Origin: Microbacterium sp. H83
GTDB taxonomy: Bacteria > Actinomycetota > Actinomycetes > Actinomycetales > Microbacteriaceae
NCBI RefSeq assembly: GCF_001650405.1
Contig: NZ_LWCU01000045.1
Span: 1 to 64,000, forward strand
Direction: 5' to 3'
DNA: 64,000 nt
The position numbers and the translations under genes were made by a program. Shown here piece after piece: positions 28,916 through 56,160 of this stretch (position 1 is its first letter; each line of letters opens with the position of its first letter). Below the pieces are notes generated by a model, which was given only the letters and a program-made list of their open reading frames with translations, was not told the origin of the DNA and made no database searches.

Positions 28916-29535
28916 CGTTCCCTCTCCGTCCATGTCTCGATCCGCTGGATGTCGCGCACGGTGATGTCGATCGCCGCGACGGACAGGTCGGTGTGCCGCC
29001 CGACGCGCGCGGCGACCTCCGCCCGCAGTCGGTCGACGGCAGCGGGGATCGCCGTCCCGTACAGCGCGCTGACCTCGAGCGTGATCGTGATCGGCGCACC
29101 GACGACATCGGCGTCGCCGTCGAGCACGCAGCGTCCGACGAGCAGTCCGGCCACGGCGTTCTCGGCCGACCTGACGAGCCCGCGCACCGCTCCCTCCGTG
29201 ATCGCGAGGTCGGCTCCCGGAGCCTGCTCGGCGAAGGGGATCCGCCGCCCCGCCCGCGCGTCCAGGGCGATGCCGCCGAGGATGCGGTCGACCCAGCTCT
29301 CGTCGACCTCCGGCATGGCTGCGGCATCCGCGTCGATGAGCTGACCGCTCAGCCCCCTCAGCCGCTCCAGCGCGTCGAGGGCCAGCTGACATCCTGCGGA
29401 CGCCTCGATCGAGGGGTCGACGGGCTGCCGACCGGCCTCCAGGTAGTCCGTGAGCTCGTCGAGCGTGTGGCCGTCGAGGTCGTCGGGCTCGAGCCCGAGC
29501 CGTCGCACCTCGTGCTGCTCCTGTTCCTCGGTCAT
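28912..29535 (-). CDS. Asp23/Gls24-like protein coupled to a sigma factor
   Basis: 207 residues. The C-terminal 110 residues (VSALYGTAIPAAVDRLRAEV, then DLSVAAIDITVRDIQ) are Asp23/Gls24-like. The N-terminal 70 residues (LDELTDYLEAGRQPVDPSIE, then CQLALDALERLR) are a separate helical segment resembling the start of ECF anti-sigma factors. The ATG at 29535 overlaps the sigma-factor stop as ATGA, the arrangement usual for sigma/anti-sigma pairs. I infer a regulatory role towards the sigma factor, but this is unproven. A GTG at 29541 is an alternative start. Confidence 0.8.
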   Translation of the reverse strand: MTEEQEQHEVRRLGLEPDDLDGHTLDELTDYLEAGRQPVDPSIEASAGCQLALDALERLRGLSGQLIDADAAAMPEVDESWVDRILGGIALDARAGRRIPFAEQAPGADLAITEGAVRGLVRSAENAVAGLLVGRCVLDGDADVVGAPITITLEVSALYGTAIPAAVDRLRAEVAARVGRHTDLSVAAIDITVRDIQRIETWTERER

Positions 29536-37040: not shown

Positions 37041-37829
37041 TCAGGGACTCGCCGTGAGCAGCGCGAGAAGTCGCCCGTGAACCTCGGTTCCTGCGGCGAT
37101 GAGCATGGGTCTCAGCGACTCGGTGTCGACGAGACTCACCGCTCCCCCGGCCTCCGACACCAGCAGCGACCCCGCCGCGAAGTCCCAGGGCTTGAGGCCA
37201 CGCTCGAAGTAGCCGTCGAGTCTGCCCGCCGCGACGTAGGCGAGATCGAGCGAGGCCGCGCCCGCTCGGCGCAGGTCACGAGCGATCGTCATGACGGTGC
37301 GCACCGTCGTCAGATCCCCGTCGTGCGTGGCCGGGTCATAGCCGAATCCGGTCGCCAGCAGAGCCCCTGCCGGAGTCTCGTCCGTGACCGCGAGGCGCTG
37401 ATCTCCGAGCCACGCGCCGCCCCCGCGCACGGCGCGGAACAGCTCGTCGGTGGCCGGGGCGTACACGGCCCCCGCGAGCGCCTCCCATTCGCCGGGTGCC
37501 GCGACGCCGCGGACCGCAGCGATGCTGACCGCGTAGGACGGGATGCCGTACGCGTAGTTGACGGTGCCGTCGATCGGGTCGACGACCCAGGTGATGCCCG
37601 TCTCGCCGGGCTCCGGGTCGGTCTCCTCGCCCAGGAATCCGTCGCCCGGCCGCTCTTCGCGGAGCCGGGTGCGGATGAGCGCTTCGACCTCGCGGTCGGC
37701 GTCGGTCACGATGTCGGCCACCGACGACTTCGTCGCCGCCAGTCGCACGCCCTCGGCGCGTCGTGTGCGCGCCAGCGCTCCCGCCTCGCGCGCGATCCGC
37801 GCCGCGAGCTCTCCGAGTGCAGTCTCCAC
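37041..37829 (-). CDS. Inositol monophosphatase family protein
   Basis: 262 residues. The metal-binding motifs are complete: GFLGEETD, then WVVDPIDGTVNYAYGIPSYA, and KPWDFAAGSLLVSEAGG near the C-terminus. Family members hydrolyse inositol phosphates, histidinol phosphate, PAP or sugar phosphates; this sequence does not settle which. GTG 37829 is chosen because GGGGAGGT sits 7 nt upstream; GTG 37850 overlaps the previous gene's stop but lacks a ribosome site. Confidence 0.92.
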   Translation of the reverse strand: METALGELAARIAREAGALARTRRAEGVRLAATKSSVADIVTDADREVEALIRTRLREERPGDGFLGEETDPEPGETGITWVVDPIDGTVNYAYGIPSYAVSIAAVRGVAAPGEWEALAGAVYAPATDELFRAVRGGGAWLGDQRLAVTDETPAGALLATGFGYDPATHDGDLTTVRTVMTIARDLRRAGAASLDLAYVAAGRLDGYFERGLKPWDFAAGSLLVSEAGGAVSLVDTESLRPMLIAAGTEVHGRLLALLTASP

Positions 37830-43457: not shown

Positions 43458-44165
43458 CTACTCGGCCGCCCGCTGCATCGCCTGATCGGCCTCCGAGACG
43501 ATGTTCCGCATCGCGGCGGCGGCGACATCGCCCGCTCCGCTCGCGACCGCGAACGCGACATCGCGATGCCATTGCACGGCATCCGAGTCGGCGACGTGCG
43601 GCATGAGATCGTGCGCGGTGCGCCCACGGAGGACCGCCTCCACCGTGCCGCCCAGCGCCGCGAGCATCCCGTTGCCGGACGCCTCGAGAAGGAGCCTGTG
43701 GAAGCGGATGTCCGCGGTCAGGTAGCGGTCGCGGTCGGCCTCGTGGTCCTCCTCCCCCATCTGCACGACGAGGGAGACGAGATCCACCTTCTGCTCCGGA
43801 GTCGCGTTCGCCGCCGCCAGCTGTGCGGCCAGCGGCTCCACCACGGATCGCAGCTGGCTGAGCTCCCGCAGCTGCTCGGCCCGTCCCGGCCCCGCGAGAC
43901 GCCACGCGATCACCTCGGGGGCGTAGACGTTCCAGTCGGAGCGAGGCCGCACCTCGACCCCGGACTTCCGTCGCACCCAGACGAGACCGAAGGACTCGAG
44001 CACGCGCACCGCCTCGCGGGCGGCCGACCGCGAGACGCCGCGTCGCACGGCGATCTCGACCGTCAGCATCCGCGAGCCCGGCGCATGGACGCCGTCGACG
44101 ATGGCGCGGCCGAGCTCGTCGACGAGCGACTCGTGCACGGTGTTCGCCGGAGCGGAGGAGGTCAT
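43458..44165 (-). CDS. GntR family (FCD domain) transcriptional regulator, gluconate
   Basis: 235 residues. The N-terminal winged helix (TVEIAVRRGVSRSAAREAVR) is followed by an FCD ligand domain with the metal-binding His in ADIRFHRLLLEASGN and later HRDVAF. It diverges from gntP, with gntK behind, so gluconate control is likely. A weak -10-like CATACT ends 6 nt before ATG 44165. It would bind the 15-bp inverted repeat in the intergenic region. Confidence 0.9.
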   Translation of the reverse strand: MTSSAPANTVHESLVDELGRAIVDGVHAPGSRMLTVEIAVRRGVSRSAAREAVRVLESFGLVWVRRKSGVEVRPRSDWNVYAPEVIAWRLAGPGRAEQLRELSQLRSVVEPLAAQLAAANATPEQKVDLVSLVVQMGEEDHEADRDRYLTADIRFHRLLLEASGNGMLAALGGTVEAVLRGRTAHDLMPHVADSDAVQWHRDVAFAVASGAGDVAAAAMRNIVSEADQAMQRAAE

Positions 44166-44256
44166 AGCTCGAGTATGCCTCGGGATAGCGCGGCTGATCG
44201 AACAAGTAGGAGCCGGCGCAGTCTTTATGTTGCGCATCTCTCATCGACCGTGCTTA

Positions 44257-46273: not shown

Positions 46274-47359
46274 TCATCGGAGCCGACGCACGGACCGGCG
46301 ATCGATGAACTCGGAGGCGAGATGGCTGACGATCACGCGGTCCCCTCCGCCCTCGAGCCGGGACAGCAGTCGCCCTGCCGCCCTCTCCCCCAGCGCGTGC
46401 AGCGGCTGACGGACGGTGGTGATCGGCGGATCGTGCACCTCCGCCCAGGGCGAGTCGTCGAAGGCGACGAGCGAGAGGTCCTGAGGGATGCGGCGCCCAT
46501 GGTCGCGTGCCGCTGACAGCGCCGCGATGACCGAGTCCTGCTCGGTGGCGATGATGGCGGTGACGTCCCCGTCGGTGAGCGTGCGGGCGAGGAACTCCTC
46601 GACGCCCGCGATGTTCTGCGCGCCCGTCATGACGAGTTCAGGGCGCAGCGGCACGCCTGCATCGGCGAACGCGTCCACGTATCCCAGGAATCGCTCCCCG
46701 GTACTCGTGATCTCCGAGGTCAGGGCGGCAGAGGTGAGTGCGGCGAGGTCCGCGTCCGCTCCGGCCGGCAGCGCCGGGCCCCAGGCCAGCGCGATCCTCC
46801 GGTGCCCGGCTGCGAGCAGGTAGTCGGTCGCTTCGCGCGCCGCGTCCCTGTTGTCCAGGACGACGGCATCCGCATCGAGCCCACGCAGGGTGCGGTCGAT
46901 CTGGACCACCGGGATCCCCCGCTCCGCAGCACTGCGCAGCGCGGAGGCGGACGCGTCACGGCCTCCGGCGGGCGCGACGATGATGCCGTCCACCTGCTTC
47001 GCCGTCAGAAGGCGCACGGCATCCGCCTCGAGGCCCTCGTCCTCGTCGCTGCTGATGACGATGGTGCCGTACCCGGCGCGGCGGGTCGCGTCGGCGATGC
47101 CGCGCAGCACCCCGGCGAAGAACGGGTTGGAGAGGTCGGCGAGGATCACGCCGATCGTGCGCGTGACACCGGTGTTCATGCTCCGCGCGAGCTCGTTGGT
47201 CTCATAGCCGAGCTCCGCCGCAGCGGCGAGAACCCGTTCGCGGGTGCGCGCGCTCACGGATCCGTATCCGCCGAGCACGCGCGCAGCGGAGGACCGGCCG
47301 ACACCGGCTCTCTCGGAGACCTCCGAAAGAGTGGGTTTGGCGGGTTCGTGAGAAGGCAC
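46274..47359 (-). CDS. LacI family repressor of the frl-like operon
   Basis: 361 residues. The N-terminal helix-turn-helix is PTLSEVSERAGVGRSSAARV, then LGGYGSVSARTRERVLAAA. The periplasmic-binding-protein-like effector domain follows (GVILADLSNPFFAGVLRGIA). GTG 47359 is chosen because TAGAGT lies 7 nt upstream; the ORF could start 3 codons earlier. It is the last gene behind the frl-like operon but has its own promoter, allowing repression in the uninduced state. The palindromes at 52243-52274 are the likely target. Confidence 0.92.
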   Translation of the reverse strand: MPSHEPAKPTLSEVSERAGVGRSSAARVLGGYGSVSARTRERVLAAAAELGYETNELARSMNTGVTRTIGVILADLSNPFFAGVLRGIADATRRAGYGTIVISSDEDEGLEADAVRLLTAKQVDGIIVAPAGGRDASASALRSAAERGIPVVQIDRTLRGLDADAVVLDNRDAAREATDYLLAAGHRRIALAWGPALPAGADADLAALTSAALTSEITSTGERFLGYVDAFADAGVPLRPELVMTGAQNIAGVEEFLARTLTDGDVTAIIATEQDSVIAALSAARDHGRRIPQDLSLVAFDDSPWAEVHDPPITTVRQPLHALGERAAGRLLSRLEGGGDRVIVSHLASEFIDRRSVRRLR

Positions 47360-47366
47360 GGACTTC

Positions 47367-47372
47367 ACTCTA
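47367..47372 (-). promoter_or_regulatory. -10 hexamer TAGAGT, 7 nt before the LacI gene GTG
   Basis: Located just past the amidohydrolase stop; an independent promoter for the repressor gene. Confidence 0.55.
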
Positions 47373-47392: not shown

Positions 47393-48880
47393 TCATCCGC
47401 CGAGCACGAGCTCTCCGGAGGCGAGCACGAGCCGCGGCGACGCGCCGATCAGCTCGTCCTCGGTGACCGAGAGGAGATCCCGGTCGAAGACGACGACATC
47501 GGCCGCGGCTCCGGCCACGAGCCCTCGACGGCCCCGATCGGACCCCAACGCGCCGCGCTCGTCGGTCCAGATCGAGATGACATCATCCCGCGGGACGGCT
47601 GCCCCATGCGGCCAGCGCTCGCTCGCCCCTTCGCGCCCCAGGACTCGGCCGGACGACGACAGGAGCGCCTCGGGCAGGCTCGGGTCGAAGAGGGGGAAGT
47701 CCGAGCCCGAAGCCACGGCGACTCCGGATCGGAGCAGCGCCGAGAGGTTCGCGAGACGATGCCGCTGCGACCCGTCCAGCCACCCCTCGACGGAGCTCGT
47801 GGTGTATCCGGGATACCGAAGGATCTGGGTGTAGTACTCCACGCCGAGACCGAGGTCCGCCAGACGCGCCACGTCGTCATCGTCGAGCATCGAGGCGTCC
47901 GAGACGGTGCACCCGCCAGGCAGCGGACCGCGATGCGCGGCGTAGATGTCGAGGCAGGCGCGGACAGCGGCGTCCCCGTCGGCGTTCAACGCCAGCCGGA
48001 AGCCCGCGTCGAGAATGCGCGCGGCCTCGCGCGCGAGAGCCCGTCGGTCGAACGACAGCCGTTCGTCTTCCGGATCGGAGCATCGGAGGTCGGCGGTCCC
48101 CTCGTCGAAGGAGCCGTCGGTCATGAGCTTGAACCCGTGGAACCGCGCACCGCCGTCCGGCCGGTCGTCGAGGGCTCCGGCCCAGTCGAGATCCGCCGGC
48201 TCCCGCACCGGCTGCGAGGCGAACGAGTACGAGAGCCGAAGCCGAGCCGATCTCGACAGCTCGTCGATGACCGGCAGCATCCCGAGGTGGTCATCGAACC
48301 CGATGTCCTTGACCGACGTCACGCCGCCCCGATGCATCCGCGCGGCGGCGGCCAGGAACGCCCGCTCGACGGCGGAGTCGTCGAGCGCCAGGCGCGCGTA
48401 GAGCGGCGCGAGTTGCTCGTTGGATGCGGGGTCGGGGTCGCCGAGCTGTGCGCGCGCCGCTGGGGTGAGCAGGATGCCGTCACGGTCGGCGCTCAGCAGC
48501 ACGGCGTCGCCGACTCCTTCGCCGCCGAAGGTCTCCCGCAGACGCGTCACCTGTGCGGCGGTGGCGTTGCGCAGGAACACGGCCCCCTCCGAAGCCGAGA
48601 TCAGGCGACCGATGTCGTCGTCGGAGACGTGGCGTGCGTCCGTGCCCGCCACTTCCAGGAGCTGCGACGTGAAGAACGTGTGGTCATCGTGGAACCCGGA
48701 GGTCACGAGCCCCGCGCCGGCGTCGTGCACGGCGGTCCCGTCGCCGATCCACGGGGCGGCCTCGTCCGCGCGCCGCCCGGTGGCCACGATCCGATCCCCC
48801 GCGACGGCGAGGAACCCGGGTCCGACATCTCCGGCACGCCGCCGGATGCTGTCGCCGACGATCACATGGTCCGCGATCAC
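47393..48880 (-). CDS. YtcJ-like amidohydrolase
   Basis: 495 residues, amidohydrolase superfamily. The N-terminal composite beta-domain starts VIADHVIVGDSIRR. SGFHDDHTFF carries the first His pair. VTSVKDIGFDDHLGML, RFHGFKLMTDGSFDEGTADL (carboxylated-Lys region) and LALNADGDAAVRA complete the YtcJ layout, and the terminal Asp is in VAVASGSDFPLFDP. Related enzymes hydrolyse N-formyl or N-acyl bonds and imides. The GTG at 48880 overlaps the transporter stop. Its place in the frl-like operon suggests deacylation of the substrate. Confidence 0.88.
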   Translation of the reverse strand: MIADHVIVGDSIRRRAGDVGPGFLAVAGDRIVATGRRADEAAPWIGDGTAVHDAGAGLVTSGFHDDHTFFTSQLLEVAGTDARHVSDDDIGRLISASEGAVFLRNATAAQVTRLRETFGGEGVGDAVLLSADRDGILLTPAARAQLGDPDPASNEQLAPLYARLALDDSAVERAFLAAAARMHRGGVTSVKDIGFDDHLGMLPVIDELSRSARLRLSYSFASQPVREPADLDWAGALDDRPDGGARFHGFKLMTDGSFDEGTADLRCSDPEDERLSFDRRALAREAARILDAGFRLALNADGDAAVRACLDIYAAHRGPLPGGCTVSDASMLDDDDVARLADLGLGVEYYTQILRYPGYTTSSVEGWLDGSQRHRLANLSALLRSGVAVASGSDFPLFDPSLPEALLSSSGRVLGREGASERWPHGAAVPRDDVISIWTDERGALGSDRGRRGLVAGAAADVVVFDRDLLSVTEDELIGASPRLVLASGELVLGG

Positions 48881-50349
48881 GCCGTGATCCCGAAGACACC
48901 CACCAGTGCGAAGCCGACGACGGCGACGACCGCGGCGATGATCTGATAGGGCAGGTTGGTGATCCAGTGGCGGTACAGCGGGACGCGAGTCGCGCTGGAC
49001 GTGAGAAGCCCCACGTCCGACGAGATCGCCGCCGCGACGCCGAACGTCCCCGCCGACAGCAGAGCAGCCACCGTCGCGGGGACGCTCGCCCCGGTCTGCC
49101 CCGCCAGCTGCACCAGCACCGGCACGAGCAGGATGTACAGCGACCAGTTCAGGGTGACCAGCATCTCCGTGAGACCGAACACGAGGAAGATGATCAGCGG
49201 CAGCCACTGGGGTGCGAGCACGCCCGAGACGTTGTCGATCACGAAGTCCGTGAACCCCAGCGTGGAGATGCCGTGCACGAGCACGAAGGCCAGCGCCATG
49301 AGCAGCACCAGCGAGAAGATGTCCTTCATCCCGTCGATCACCGCGTCGACATACGCGGCGATGGTCGTGAACCGCTGCGCGACGAGAAGCACCCCGGTCA
49401 CGAGGATCGCCAGGATGAAACCGAGCTGGATCTGACCGAACACCAGCGTCGTGACGATGACGACGGCGATCGGCACGAGGAAATTGAGGAAGTGCGGGAG
49501 GGAACCCGTGTCTTCGGCCTCTTCGACCTCGTCGCTCTGCGCAGCCGCGGCGAACTCGGCACGCATCGGTCCGATGATCGGGAGGATCCGGGCCGAGAGC
49601 AGGATGCCGATGACGACCGCCGCCATCGAGTAGAAGAGGAACGGGATGACGTCCAGATATGCGCCCAGCTGATCCGCTCCATAGCCGGCCGCGACAAGGA
49701 GTCCGGCGATGAGCGCCGACGTCGATCCGATGGGATTGAGAGTCGTGCCGGGCTCACCCGTCGATCGGATGACGCCCGCGCTGAACGCCCGCGGCAGCCC
49801 ATAGCGGCGATTCAGCGGCGTGAGACTGACGCCGACTCCGGACGCGGAGAGGTAGCTGTCGTTAGAGAGCAGCAGACTCGAGACGGACGTGACGAGACCC
49901 GCCGCGCGCGGGCCGCGGGCGAGCCGGGAGGCGGCGCGGGCGAAAGACGCCGCGAGCCCCATCTTCTCGAACACTCCGAGCAGTCCGCCGATCGCAACGA
50001 GGAGGACGAGGAGCGAGACATTGTCGGGATCGGTGATCTGGCCGTACAGGGAATCCATCCACGCTGTCGGCGCCTCCGCTCGGTGGATCATCACGACGGC
50101 CAGCAGGCCGCTCCAGAAGAACCCTTCGACGACCCGATGCGTGACGAGGATGAATCCGAACAGCGTGACGGCCGGCAGGAGACTCCACCAGCCGTAGAAC
50201 GACTCCTCGCCTGATGGCGCCAAGAGCGACACCAGCGCGATCACGGCGAGCCCGGCGTATCCGGTCATCGTCCGGGCTCGGTGACTGAAGCGGCCGCTCG
50301 GCTGAGCGAGTGAAGCGGAGTCGACCTTCGATGCGGTCTGCTGCGTCAT
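48877..50349 (-). CDS. NhaC family-like transporter
   Basis: 490 residues with about 12 transmembrane helices. SLLPAVTLFGFILVTHRVVE, LLVLLVAIGGLLGVFEKMGL and SSLLLSNDSYLSASGVGVSL match the NhaC family, but the usual acidic cation-site motif (FFDDYANT-like) is replaced by LLSNDSYLSAS. It is therefore likelier to carry an organic solute with cations than to be a Na+/H+ antiporter. The overlap with the kinase gene (ATGA) and the amidohydrolase gene (GTGA) ties it to the operon. Confidence 0.85.
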   Translation of the reverse strand: MTQQTASKVDSASLAQPSGRFSHRARTMTGYAGLAVIALVSLLAPSGEESFYGWWSLLPAVTLFGFILVTHRVVEGFFWSGLLAVVMIHRAEAPTAWMDSLYGQITDPDNVSLLVLLVAIGGLLGVFEKMGLAASFARAASRLARGPRAAGLVTSVSSLLLSNDSYLSASGVGVSLTPLNRRYGLPRAFSAGVIRSTGEPGTTLNPIGSTSALIAGLLVAAGYGADQLGAYLDVIPFLFYSMAAVVIGILLSARILPIIGPMRAEFAAAAQSDEVEEAEDTGSLPHFLNFLVPIAVVIVTTLVFGQIQLGFILAILVTGVLLVAQRFTTIAAYVDAVIDGMKDIFSLVLLMALAFVLVHGISTLGFTDFVIDNVSGVLAPQWLPLIIFLVFGLTEMLVTLNWSLYILLVPVLVQLAGQTGASVPATVAALLSAGTFGVAAAISSDVGLLTSSATRVPLYRHWITNLPYQIIAAVVAVVGFALVGVFGITA

Positions 50350-51218
50350 TGCTGATACTCCTTCGGGTACCCGAATGCTCCCTCGATGGAGCATTGCTCT
50401 GCGGCGAAGCCCGCCGCGCGCATCATGGCCGCGCGCAGATGCTGCGCCTCGACCGGAGTCTCGCGACCCCACCCCGCTTCCAGGAGGGACAGCGAGAAGG
50501 CCGTGAGGAACGCATCGCCGGCGCCCATCGTGTCGACCGGGTCCACCTCGATCGCGGGAGCGCGGAGGAACGACTCACCGTCGAACAGCCCGGAGCCGTC
50601 CATGCCGCGGGTCACGAGGCAGAGCCGCGCTCCGCGCTCGTGCACCGACCGCGCGAACTCCTCCGCCTCGGTCCAGTCGAGGTCCGCGACGGAGAACGCC
50701 GCGAGGTCGACGAGCGGGGCGACCGCATCGAGATGATGCGACTCGCGGTGCTCGACGTCGTCGGAGAAGTCGTAGGACACCAGACGCGCGGCCGCACGCA
50801 CGGATGCCATGTGCGGCTCGAGCGCGGCATAGGCGCCGACGTGGACGAGGTCGAATCCGGCGAGGTACGCGAGGTCGTCATCGGTCGGCACGAACGGGCT
50901 GTCGAGCACGATTCCCCCGTCCCATTCGCCGAACACGCGGTCGCCGTCGACGACGCGGACGTCGCACCACCCGGTGGCGCCGGGCTTGACGACACATCGG
51001 CTGGTGTCGACACCGAGCTCCGTGAGCGCCATACGGATGTGCGTCGCGGCGTCGTCATCGCCCAGGACGCCGACGTAGGACGCCTGCGCGCCCAGCCTGG
51101 CGGCGAAGACGGCGAAGTTCACGCAGTTGCCGCCCGGGTAGAGCACGCCCCGATCCACGAAGCGGTCGACGACGTTGTCGCCGAGCCCCGCGACCCGGAG
51201 CCCGCTCATCTCCGGCAT
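50346..51218 (-). CDS. PfkB family kinase, FrlD-like (fructoselysine 6-kinase)
   Basis: 290 residues. Specific FrlD-like features: GLGDNVVDRF at the start, YPGGNCVNFAVFAARLG, GDRVFGEWDGGI, ARLVSYDFSDDVEHR and VDTMGAGDAFLTAFS. The catalytic base is Asp235 in GAGD. These blocks match E. coli FrlD in order and spacing, so phosphorylation of an Amadori compound at C6 is likely. ATG 51218 overlaps the deglycase stop (TGATG), translationally coupling the two. Confidence 0.88.
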   Translation of the reverse strand: MPEMSGLRVAGLGDNVVDRFVDRGVLYPGGNCVNFAVFAARLGAQASYVGVLGDDDAATHIRMALTELGVDTSRCVVKPGATGWCDVRVVDGDRVFGEWDGGIVLDSPFVPTDDDLAYLAGFDLVHVGAYAALEPHMASVRAAARLVSYDFSDDVEHRESHHLDAVAPLVDLAAFSVADLDWTEAEEFARSVHERGARLCLVTRGMDGSGLFDGESFLRAPAIEVDPVDTMGAGDAFLTAFSLSLLEAGWGRETPVEAQHLRAAMMRAAGFAAEQCSIEGAFGYPKEYQQ

Positions 51219-52228
51219 CAGTACTCGACCGTGCGGTAGTACCGGCGCGTCGTGAGCGCGTGACCGCGTGCAGCCTCGAGGTGCTTGCTGAACCGGATGG
51301 TGATCGCGTCGACGACGATCGGAGCGATCAGTCCGCGGAACTCGGGGCTGATGCCGTCCAGGGGGTACGCGCTCGTGTCGATCACGGTCGTCTCGTCGTT
51401 GTACGTGTCGGTGAACCGCTGCACGCGCTCCATGAGCGGGCGCGACTCGTCCTCGCCCACGAAGAGGAGGACGCTCGTGTCCTTCTCGATGAGCTCGAGC
51501 GATCCGTGGAAGAACTCGGCGCCGTGCACGCGAGTGGTCCGCAGCCACTGCATCTCCTCGAGGATGCACATCGAGTAGTTGTACGTGAATCCCCACAGAT
51601 TGCCCGCCCCGACGAGGAAATGATAATCGGTGTCCGCGTGCCGCTTCGCGAAGGCGGCGGCCTGAGGGTCAGCCTGCTCCTGCACCGCGGTGAGGACGCC
51701 GGTGAGGTCGGCGAGCTCGTCTGCGAGGCGGGGATACGCGTCGAACTCACCGCGTCGGTGCAGCAGCGCGGTGGTCAGGAGCAGGAGCTGGATGTCGACG
51801 GACTCGCCGGCGGTCTCGTCGTCGGCCCAGTTGACGACGATGTGATCCGCTGCCGCGATGGGGCTGTCCGCGTAGCCGGTGAGCGCGATGGTCGTGACGC
51901 CCTTCGCCTTGCAGTACTCGAGCGCGGCGACCGTCTCCTTCGTCGTCCCGGAGAGCGAGGAGAAGACGGCGAGGGAGCGCTCGGTGAGGCGCGGATCGCC
52001 GGCCGTCACGAGCTCGGCCGCGATGACGGAGCGCACAGCGAGGGTGGACGACCGCGTGATCAGGTGCTCATAGGGCCACATCGCGGCGTACGATCCCCCG
52101 GATCCGATCAGGAACAGGTTGTCGTAGCCCGCCTCCGTCGCGGCGTCGGCGATCCGCTCGATGTCCGCACGGCGGGCGCCGGCTCCCCCGACGACCGAGG
52201 CGTAAGTGTCCGAATCGAATCCCAGCAT
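51218..52228 (-). CDS. SIS-domain phosphosugar deglycase, FrlB-like
   Basis: 336 residues, two SIS domains. LIGSGGSYAAMWPYEHLI and FSSLSGTTKETVAALEY bind the phosphosugar. MCILEEMQWL (Glu224 or 225) and EFFHGSLELIEKD (His241) align with the catalytic Glu and His of FraB/FrlB. The C-terminal GEDESRPLMERVQRF and RRYYRTVEY closely echo E. coli FrlB. It would split a 6-phosphorylated Amadori compound into glucose-6-phosphate and amine. The first gene of the operon, with a strong GGGAG ribosome site. Confidence 0.9.
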   Translation of the reverse strand: MLGFDSDTYASVVGGAGARRADIERIADAATEAGYDNLFLIGSGGSYAAMWPYEHLITRSSTLAVRSVIAAELVTAGDPRLTERSLAVFSSLSGTTKETVAALEYCKAKGVTTIALTGYADSPIAAADHIVVNWADDETAGESVDIQLLLLTTALLHRRGEFDAYPRLADELADLTGVLTAVQEQADPQAAAFAKRHADTDYHFLVGAGNLWGFTYNYSMCILEEMQWLRTTRVHGAEFFHGSLELIEKDTSVLLFVGEDESRPLMERVQRFTDTYNDETTVIDTSAYPLDGISPEFRGLIAPIVVDAITIRFSKHLEAARGHALTTRRYYRTVEY

Positions 52229-52242
52229 GTGTGTCTCCCATT

Positions 52243-52274
52243 TTGGTACCGGTACCAATTGGTACCGGTACCAA
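52243..52274. promoter_or_regulatory. Double palindromic operator of the frl-like operon
   Basis: Two abutting perfect 16-bp palindromes, TTGGTACCGGTACCAA, at 52243-52258 and 52259-52274. The even palindrome with central CG is the LacI-family type. They cover the predicted -10 and transcription start, giving a tight repression switch. Confidence 0.85.
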
Positions 52275-52301
52275 TCTGACACATGCTTCTCGCAGGCGCA
52301 A
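52273..52301 (-). promoter_or_regulatory. frl-like operon promoter
   Basis: TTGCGC (52296-52301), 17-nt spacer, CAGATT (52273-52278). The operator follows immediately, so RNA polymerase and repressor would compete. Confidence 0.55.
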
Positions 52302-55864: not shown

Positions 55865-55940
55865 CTCCCCTCGCGTGCTCTCCCCTCGCGTGCTCTCCCC
55901 TCGCATGCCCTCCCCTGGACGTGCTCTCCCCTCGCGTGCT
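55865..55940. repeat. Five tandem copies of a 15-bp unit
   Basis: CTCCCCTCGCGTGCT repeats five times, three copies identical, one with two changes and one with an inserted base. Confidence 0.85.
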
Positions 55941-56035
55941 CTTCGCTCGGGCACGGCTTCGGATGCCGTGGGGCGGCGCGCCGGCGCAGCATCCGATCCC
56001 CCGGCGTGTCGACGCCCGGATCCGACGCTGTGCTC

Positions 56036-56160
56036 ACCCGACCGACCGACCGACAGACCACCACCGACCGACGGGCCCACCGACCGACAGACCCGCCGAC
56101 CGAACGGCCCACCGACGGACCCGCCGACGGACCCACCGACCGACGGGCCCTCCAACCGAC
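56036..56160. repeat. Degenerate CCGA-type microsatellite
   Basis: About 125 bp dominated by ACCG/GACC tetranucleotides with single-base variants. Confidence 0.7.

Follow-up and report, generated by a model that had tools for sequence, protein, structure and literature searches.

Two exact copies of the palindrome TTGGTACCGGTACCAA touch each other at 52243-52258 and 52259-52274 of the window, that is, the whole 64-kb stretch of DNA analysed here, and they lie directly ahead of an operon that ends in a gene for a LacI-family regulator. The pair is real, conserved and unusually tight, and a comparison of related loci suggests that its two halves are most likely operators of the local LacI repressor. 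In our preferred interpretation, to which we give a probability of about 80%, the 32 bp comprise two operators of the repressor encoded at 46274-47368, from which the operon would be repressed. A reading of this DNA made from its letters alone (hereafter the sequence-only reading) had reported two perfect 16-bp palindromes that abut without a mismatch, which is borne out.

The tandem palindromes and the operon behind them

A lone perfect 16-bp palindrome is unremarkable in this DNA; the window holds five of them, three within the 32-bp element, and shuffles hold 3.0 on average and at most 8. The non-random features are the exact abutment of two copies and its conservation. For the abutting TTGGTACCGGTACCAA pair, searched in the window with up to 3 mismatches, the shuffle mean is 0.02 sites, and none of 100 shuffles reaches two. 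No further TTGGTACCGGTACCAA site with up to 3 mismatches occurs elsewhere within the window. The search for more copies that the sequence-only reading had proposed yields just one extra site under the same threshold in the source genome (3.53 Mb in 56 contigs), namely C5:75786 with 2 mismatches, located directly upstream of a PadR-family gene amid other repeats. A second touching pair is absent from this genome, and a TTGGTACCGGTACCAA regulon reaching beyond the operon was not found, the sole other site being the one that adjoins the PadR-family gene.

With its 16 nt and CCGG centre, TTGGTACCGGTACCAA has the form of a LacI-family operator as described in the available text of a survey of LacI regulons, an even palindrome of 16-22 nt with a central CG (PMC4052901). 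The 32-mer also contains a second register, the AATT-centred GGTACCAATTGGTACC at 52251-52266. This register was dropped as the binding unit, because the gap and the inner half-sites vary among the relatives whereas the CCGG centres are constant.

The operon lies on the minus strand after the pair and comprises genes for an SIS protein, a PfkB kinase, a transporter, an amidohydrolase and the LacI regulator. Its first gene (51218-52228) encodes an FrlB-like SIS-domain protein (Pfam SIS, 5.3e-16), a probable sugar-amine phosphate deglycase, which PDB chains 8glr and 2a3n match over residues 1-336, its full length. The FrlD-like PfkB-family kinase (50346-51239) gave no PDB chain match at E ≤ 1e-15. 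Both proteins miss the NCBIfam equivalog cut-offs, with 92 bits against 430 for FrlB and 177 bits against 247 for FrlD. The remaining genes, likewise on the minus strand, encode a transporter of the Na+/H+-antiporter family (48877-50349; PF03553, 1.3e-12), probably acting as an importer, an Amidohydro_3 amidohydrolase (47393-48955; PF07969, 1.4e-23) with a provisional start codon, and a LacI-family regulator of 364 aa (46274-47368), the predicted repressor for the two palindromes. Assignment of the latter to the LacI family follows from PF00356 (41.7 bits, cut-off 27) and PF00532 (5e-32). Given the likeness to FrlB and FrlD together with the 8glr and 2a3n matches, the operon likely acts on a glycated amino acid or a comparable sugar-amine. 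The fructosamine (frl) operons with FrlB and FrlD share the combination of an SIS protein and a PfkB kinase with the window operon, but the proteins of the latter fall below the equivalog cut-offs, and it contains a LacI regulator and an antiporter-family transporter.

A link to the neighbouring gluconate genes gntP and gntK was considered and dropped, as these genes are convergent with the lacI gene, lack the palindrome and have an FCD/GntR regulator of their own, encoded divergently at 43458-44237. In nine related loci (L008, L013, L025, L027, L114, L116, L124, L125 and L128), an additional SIS gene with 41-44% identity to that of the window occurs near the main operon, and in eight of these nine it is adjoined by a PfkB gene, so that two such operons are neighbours.

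The best promoter fit ahead of the operon consists of a predicted -35 hexamer TTGCGC (52296-52301) and a predicted -10 hexamer CAGATT (52273-52278), both on the minus strand and separated by 17 nt. This promoter fits but is weak, its score being modest relative to shuffles, and generic scans for sigma-70 promoters and for terminators returned 0 and 0 matches. The promoter-proximal palindrome, predicted operator O1 (52259-52274, no strand assigned), covers the final 2 bp of the predicted -10 hexamer and the probable transcription start. The second, identical palindrome, predicted operator O2 (52243-52258, likewise without strand), lies between that start and a Shine-Dalgarno-like GGGAG (52235-52239, minus strand), which a direct reading of the sequence places 6 nt ahead of the ATG at 52226-52228. 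This first ATG of the operon is 14 nt past the second palindrome. The 17-nt spacer had been described by the sequence-only reading as part of a promoter immediately upstream of the palindromes; the spacer agrees with the fit, but the promoter is not wholly upstream, as its -10 hexamer shares 2 bp with the first palindrome.

On this arrangement, a repressor dimer bound to O1 would block RNA polymerase at the -10 end and the transcription start, and O2 directly downstream would add a second block. With no inducer present, one dimer per palindrome would keep the operon off, including the gene of the repressor itself, which would be co-transcribed and hence autoregulated. The inducer, probably the sugar-amine degraded by the operon or its phosphate, would then release the repressor.

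Conservation of the site and its linkage to the LacI gene

Relatives of the operon were collected by way of the SIS protein. A scan gave 28 loci, 24 of them with at least 57% identity, and whole-genome SIS searches (E up to 1e-60) gave matches in 28 of 398 genomes of the family, 15 of 366 of the genus, 15 of 396 of the order and 19 of 394 of the class, samples that overlap. From the whole-genome matches 40 stretches were taken, with most SIS matches of 40-46% left out. Before counting, L105, L106, L115 and L117 were dropped as repeats of L004, L007, L027 and L024, respectively, as were L144 (SIS 43%, no site, no LacI) and L028-L031 (SIS 24-30%). The final comparison set consists of 59 loci and the window, in which near-copies, e.g., L139 and L142, were kept, so that locus counts are not independent.

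A CCGG-centred palindrome lies within 260 bp of the SIS start in 59 of the 60 loci, as judged by a motif expression composed after the sequences had been seen, with an extra form for L026 and with the window sites and the first L009 site entered by hand. The one exception, L018, carries the variant CAGATACCGGTATCAG. Wherever a downstream LacI gene could be read (53 loci and the window), the site is present at this distance, giving 54 of 54 loci, which are related to one another. The proposal that the palindromes are the operator of the regulator encoded at the operon's end is thereby supported, as the predicted site travels with the regulator across Actinobacteria, and the comparison with orthologous promoters that accompanied it gives the palindrome in every LacI-linked locus and the pair in all seven loci of the clade described below. 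The comparison further yields a motif that characterises a family of probable sugar-amine operons in Actinobacteria.

Six loci are without a readable LacI gene: L008, L010, L017 and L143, at contig ends, together with L020 and L018. In L020 the sites are present and no LacI gene occurs within the 16-kb stretch, while L018, from Curtobacterium, shares the operon genes but lacks both a close pair and a local LacI gene. The closest LacI homologue in the L018 genome (41% identical) is encoded elsewhere, at G1472:C11:2461-3474 (L145), with the helix ARATAAR; it is a possible trans-acting regulator for the L018 locus.

Of the 366 genomes of the genus, 7 carry a TTGGTACCGGTACCAA site with at most 1 mismatch, and 4 of the 7 have this operon. 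Among the operon genomes, G000 and G553 have two such sites, and G513 and G514 have one, their second site carrying 2 mismatches; in G451, G539 and G648 a single site (1 mismatch) is located elsewhere. A palindrome found mainly upstream of unrelated genes had been named in the sequence-only reading as an outcome that would tell against its proposal, and the occurrence of the operon in four of the seven genomes is not of that kind.

The LacI proteins of seven loci, i.e., the window, L004, L005, L006, L007, L009 and L107, group as one clade (support 100/99) in a tree built from 53 of the 54 rows, one short LacI having been omitted. All seven have the touching pair, with centre distances of 16 bp in the window and L006, 17 bp in L004, L005 and L009, and 15 bp in L007 and L107. 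L026 from Geodermatophilus, the next to join the clade under midpoint rooting, has a pair at 21 bp. The clade pairs span Microbacterium, Agromyces and Leucobacter, with differing spacings and inner bases. Close pairs are absent from the other 51 scored loci; 37 of these 51 have a second site 75-200 bp farther upstream, still no more than 260 bp ahead of the SIS start, and in L017 and L025 it lies just beyond 260 bp. Genes for the SIS protein, the PfkB kinase, an antiporter-type transporter and LacI occur in all eight close-pair loci; the amidohydrolase gave no match in L005 and is present in the other seven. A divergent gene for an ABC solute-binding protein is located upstream in the six others that were inspected (L012, L013, L014, L021, L024 and L135). 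A third half-site, GTAYCA, follows the right half of the operator by exactly 10 bp, or one turn, in L127, L131 and L132 (3 of the 51 loci), and no exact GTAYCA copy was found in the 51 loci at other offsets of 7-30 or on the opposite side.

The place of the site relative to the fitted promoter differs between the two groups. In all seven clade loci the spacer is 17 nt and O1 or its counterpart overlaps the predicted -10 hexamer by 1-2 bp (2 bp in the window), and in L026 the first site begins 12 bp after the fitted -10 hexamer. The centre of the site lies 17 bp after the -10 hexamer in 37 of the 51 other loci, only L127 among them having a site that overlaps it. Promoter scores average 13.6 in the 51 loci, whose base shuffles average 9.5 (sd 1.1). 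The eight close-pair loci average 11.5 and their shuffles 9.4 (sd 1.1), with 5.5% of the shuffles attaining the mean of the real loci. Because of this modest margin, the close-pair promoters are the less certain group, although their constant geometry helps; among the shuffles, 17.5% place the -10 hexamer at the O1-type overlap and 30% select a 17-nt spacer.

Spacing, cooperativity and other readings of the pair

That the operon-end LacI protein binds the two palindromes cooperatively was a further claim of the sequence-only reading, of which the operator role is supported and the cooperativity is less likely, since the 16-bp spacing and the apparent lack of a tetramerisation helix speak against the customary contact between adjoining dimers. 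A centre distance of 16 bp is about 1.5 helical turns, so two bound dimers would occupy opposite sides of the DNA and make no contact, and the pair would raise occupancy and perhaps steepen the response via DNA shape and not via a protein bridge. Such a geometry has a counterpart in QacR of the TetR family, two dimers of which bind opposite DNA faces of one overlapping site. The likeness would lie in two dimers with little or no direct contact; in contrast to QacR, the predicted repressor is of the LacI family and has two abutting sites. The match of the window regulator to the PurR-like core stops at residue 360, leaving 4 of its 364 residues, and by these alignment ends no C-terminal tetramerisation helix was found in the protein. 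A tetramer bridge is not expected, because the protein ends about where PurR ends. The spacing of about 1.5 turns and a protein apparently too short for the helix make cooperativity by contact less likely than independent or DNA-mediated binding.

Among the alternatives, true cooperativity of the dimers on O1 and O2 through direct protein contact survives best, though we consider it improbable. It would agree with the conservation of the pair in all seven clade loci and with the spacings of 22 and 32 bp that the available text of the survey reads as cooperative in LacI regulons (PMC4052901), to which the 21 bp of L026 comes close. However, 15-17 bp corresponds to about 1.4-1.6 turns and thus to opposite faces, the spacing differs among species by 1 bp in either direction, and the 4 residues past the PurR-like core make a LacI-type tetramerisation helix unlikely.

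The available text of the same survey puts the share of LacI-regulated operons with multiple sites at about 20% and names 13, 22 and 32 bp as peaks of the spacing (PMC4052901). The remark in the sequence-only reading that exact tandem duplication of an operator is uncommon therefore needs a qualifier. The touching pairs share with these tandem-operator regulons the 16-bp even palindrome with a central CG, the presence of more than one site, and a local sugar operon with the regulator gene inside. They differ in spacing, as none of the seven centre distances (15-17 bp) falls on a peak named in that text, so that 15-17 bp appears to be a new spacing variant, whereas the 21 bp of L026 is near one and agrees with the survey, in which the double sites of RafR and ScrR are 21-22 bp apart (PMC4052901). 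Overlapping operators of the E. coli GntR at gntKU, about 13 bp apart, are cited in the same text (PMC4052901). E. coli GntR at gntKU is likewise a LacI-family repressor with two close operators; its operators overlap whereas those of the window abut, and the subfamily differs, as the window protein scores 105.9 bits with the GntR model against a cut-off of 433. The motif of E. coli GntR has an ACCGGT-type centre, as do the window sites. No title or abstract opening among the literature matches listed concerned this motif or this sugar-amine operon family, and no title among the listed matches to the motif letters concerned this regulon.

The half-sites of the seven pairs are unequally conserved. 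The core TGGTACC is intact in 14 of 14 outer and 6 of 14 inner half-sites (Fisher 0.002, or 0.014 without the near-copy L107), the inner half-sites deviating at position 4 and, in L009, once also at position 2. Nevertheless, the whole 31-33 bp unit is a mismatch-free dyad in five of the seven loci, one of them with a G-U pair, and has 1 mismatch in L004, beside the loop, and 2 in L009. That the deviating inner halves mostly remain complementary fits a symmetrically read unit, and it also lends some weight to a hairpin in the RNA. It is quite unlikely that the exact repeat is an accidental operator duplication devoid of function: the identity of the two window copies and the weaker conservation of the relatives' inner half-sites would fit such an accident, but pairs with different spacing and inner bases have been kept in all seven loci across Microbacterium, Agromyces and Leucobacter.

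Returning to paired operators as the preferred reading, we suggest, as a tentative extension that we would not bet on, that this LacI clade uses touching opposite-face operators as one symmetric 31-33 bp unit around the transcription start, with invariant outer and relaxed but matching inner half-sites and with cooperativity via DNA shape alone. Such a unit may have replaced the one-operator-per-promoter divergon of the relatives when the divergent ABC importer gave way to the in-operon transporter. The regulator family offers a natural series of spacings, i.e., a single operator, an added half-site at 10 bp, and pairs at 15, 16 or 17, at 21 and at 75-200 bp, with which one can measure how spacing sets repression and cooperativity in the LacI family.

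The identity of the regulator can be approached through its recognition helix. In classical work on the lac repressor, residues 17 and 18 read operator positions 4 and 5. At E. coli LacI positions 17-19, our own alignment places R-S-S in the window protein and its clade, R-A-T in most other loci, and K-A-T in L026, L114 and L125. Of the 54 loci, 39 carry Ala18 and 15 Ser18. Position 5 is A in every primary half-site in 26 of the 39 Ala18 loci and in 0 of the 15 Ser18 loci, by a Fisher test that ignores kinship; for any A at position 5 the counts are 38 of 39 versus 6 of 15, again uncorrected for kinship. A ranking by mutual information, likewise uncorrected for kinship, leaves residue 18 outside the best six columns for position 5 and residue 17 likewise for position 4, with many-state linker columns scoring higher than either. 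Among the Lys17 loci, L026 has G and not T at position 4, while L114 and L125 retain T. L127 (R-A-T) is an exception with G at both position-5 halves, and the R-S-T loci are mixed. That the palindromes are bound by another regulator, e.g., of the GntR, TetR or PadR family, with the LacI gene as a passenger, has a slim chance; the single extra genomic site adjoining a PadR-family gene and the sites without a local LacI gene in L018 and L020 would suit it, but the co-occurrence with LacI in 54 of 54 loci and the link between residue 18 and position 5 argue against it, as does the ARATAAR helix of the closest LacI in the L018 genome, which resembles that of loci with A at position 5.

Equally slim is the chance that the element works as RNA, with the operon mRNA folding into a long hairpin in its 5' leader. 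The 32 nt would form a 14-bp hairpin (-29.8 kcal/mol with the leader, z -5.25) whose deviating inner half-sites mostly stay complementary, mismatch-free from end to end in five of seven loci. However, any such DNA dyad folds likewise, a symmetric operator pair predicts equal symmetry, and the 51 other loci retain the palindrome without a close partner. With the fitted start inside O1, the hairpin would also be shortened, to between -14 and -16 kcal/mol in six loci and to almost nothing (-3.9) in L009.

Other repeats in the window and near the PadR-family gene

The promoter of the PadR-family gene in G000 (L003, about 1480-1545) contains several GTACCGGTAC-type repeats, and the promoter of a look-alike in G451 (L155), read by eye, also has several; these repeats are perhaps a PadR operator array. 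The two perfect 16-bp palindromes of the window outside the 32-bp element are TCGGGCTCGAGCCCGA and GACGGTGCGCACCGTC, at 29483-29498 and 37293-37308, respectively, a count that chance predicts. Tandem arrays are also present between two genes of the window, at 55865-55942, where a 15-bp unit is repeated 5.1 times, and at 56038-56160, where a CCGA-rich array has periods of 4, 16 and 32 bp.
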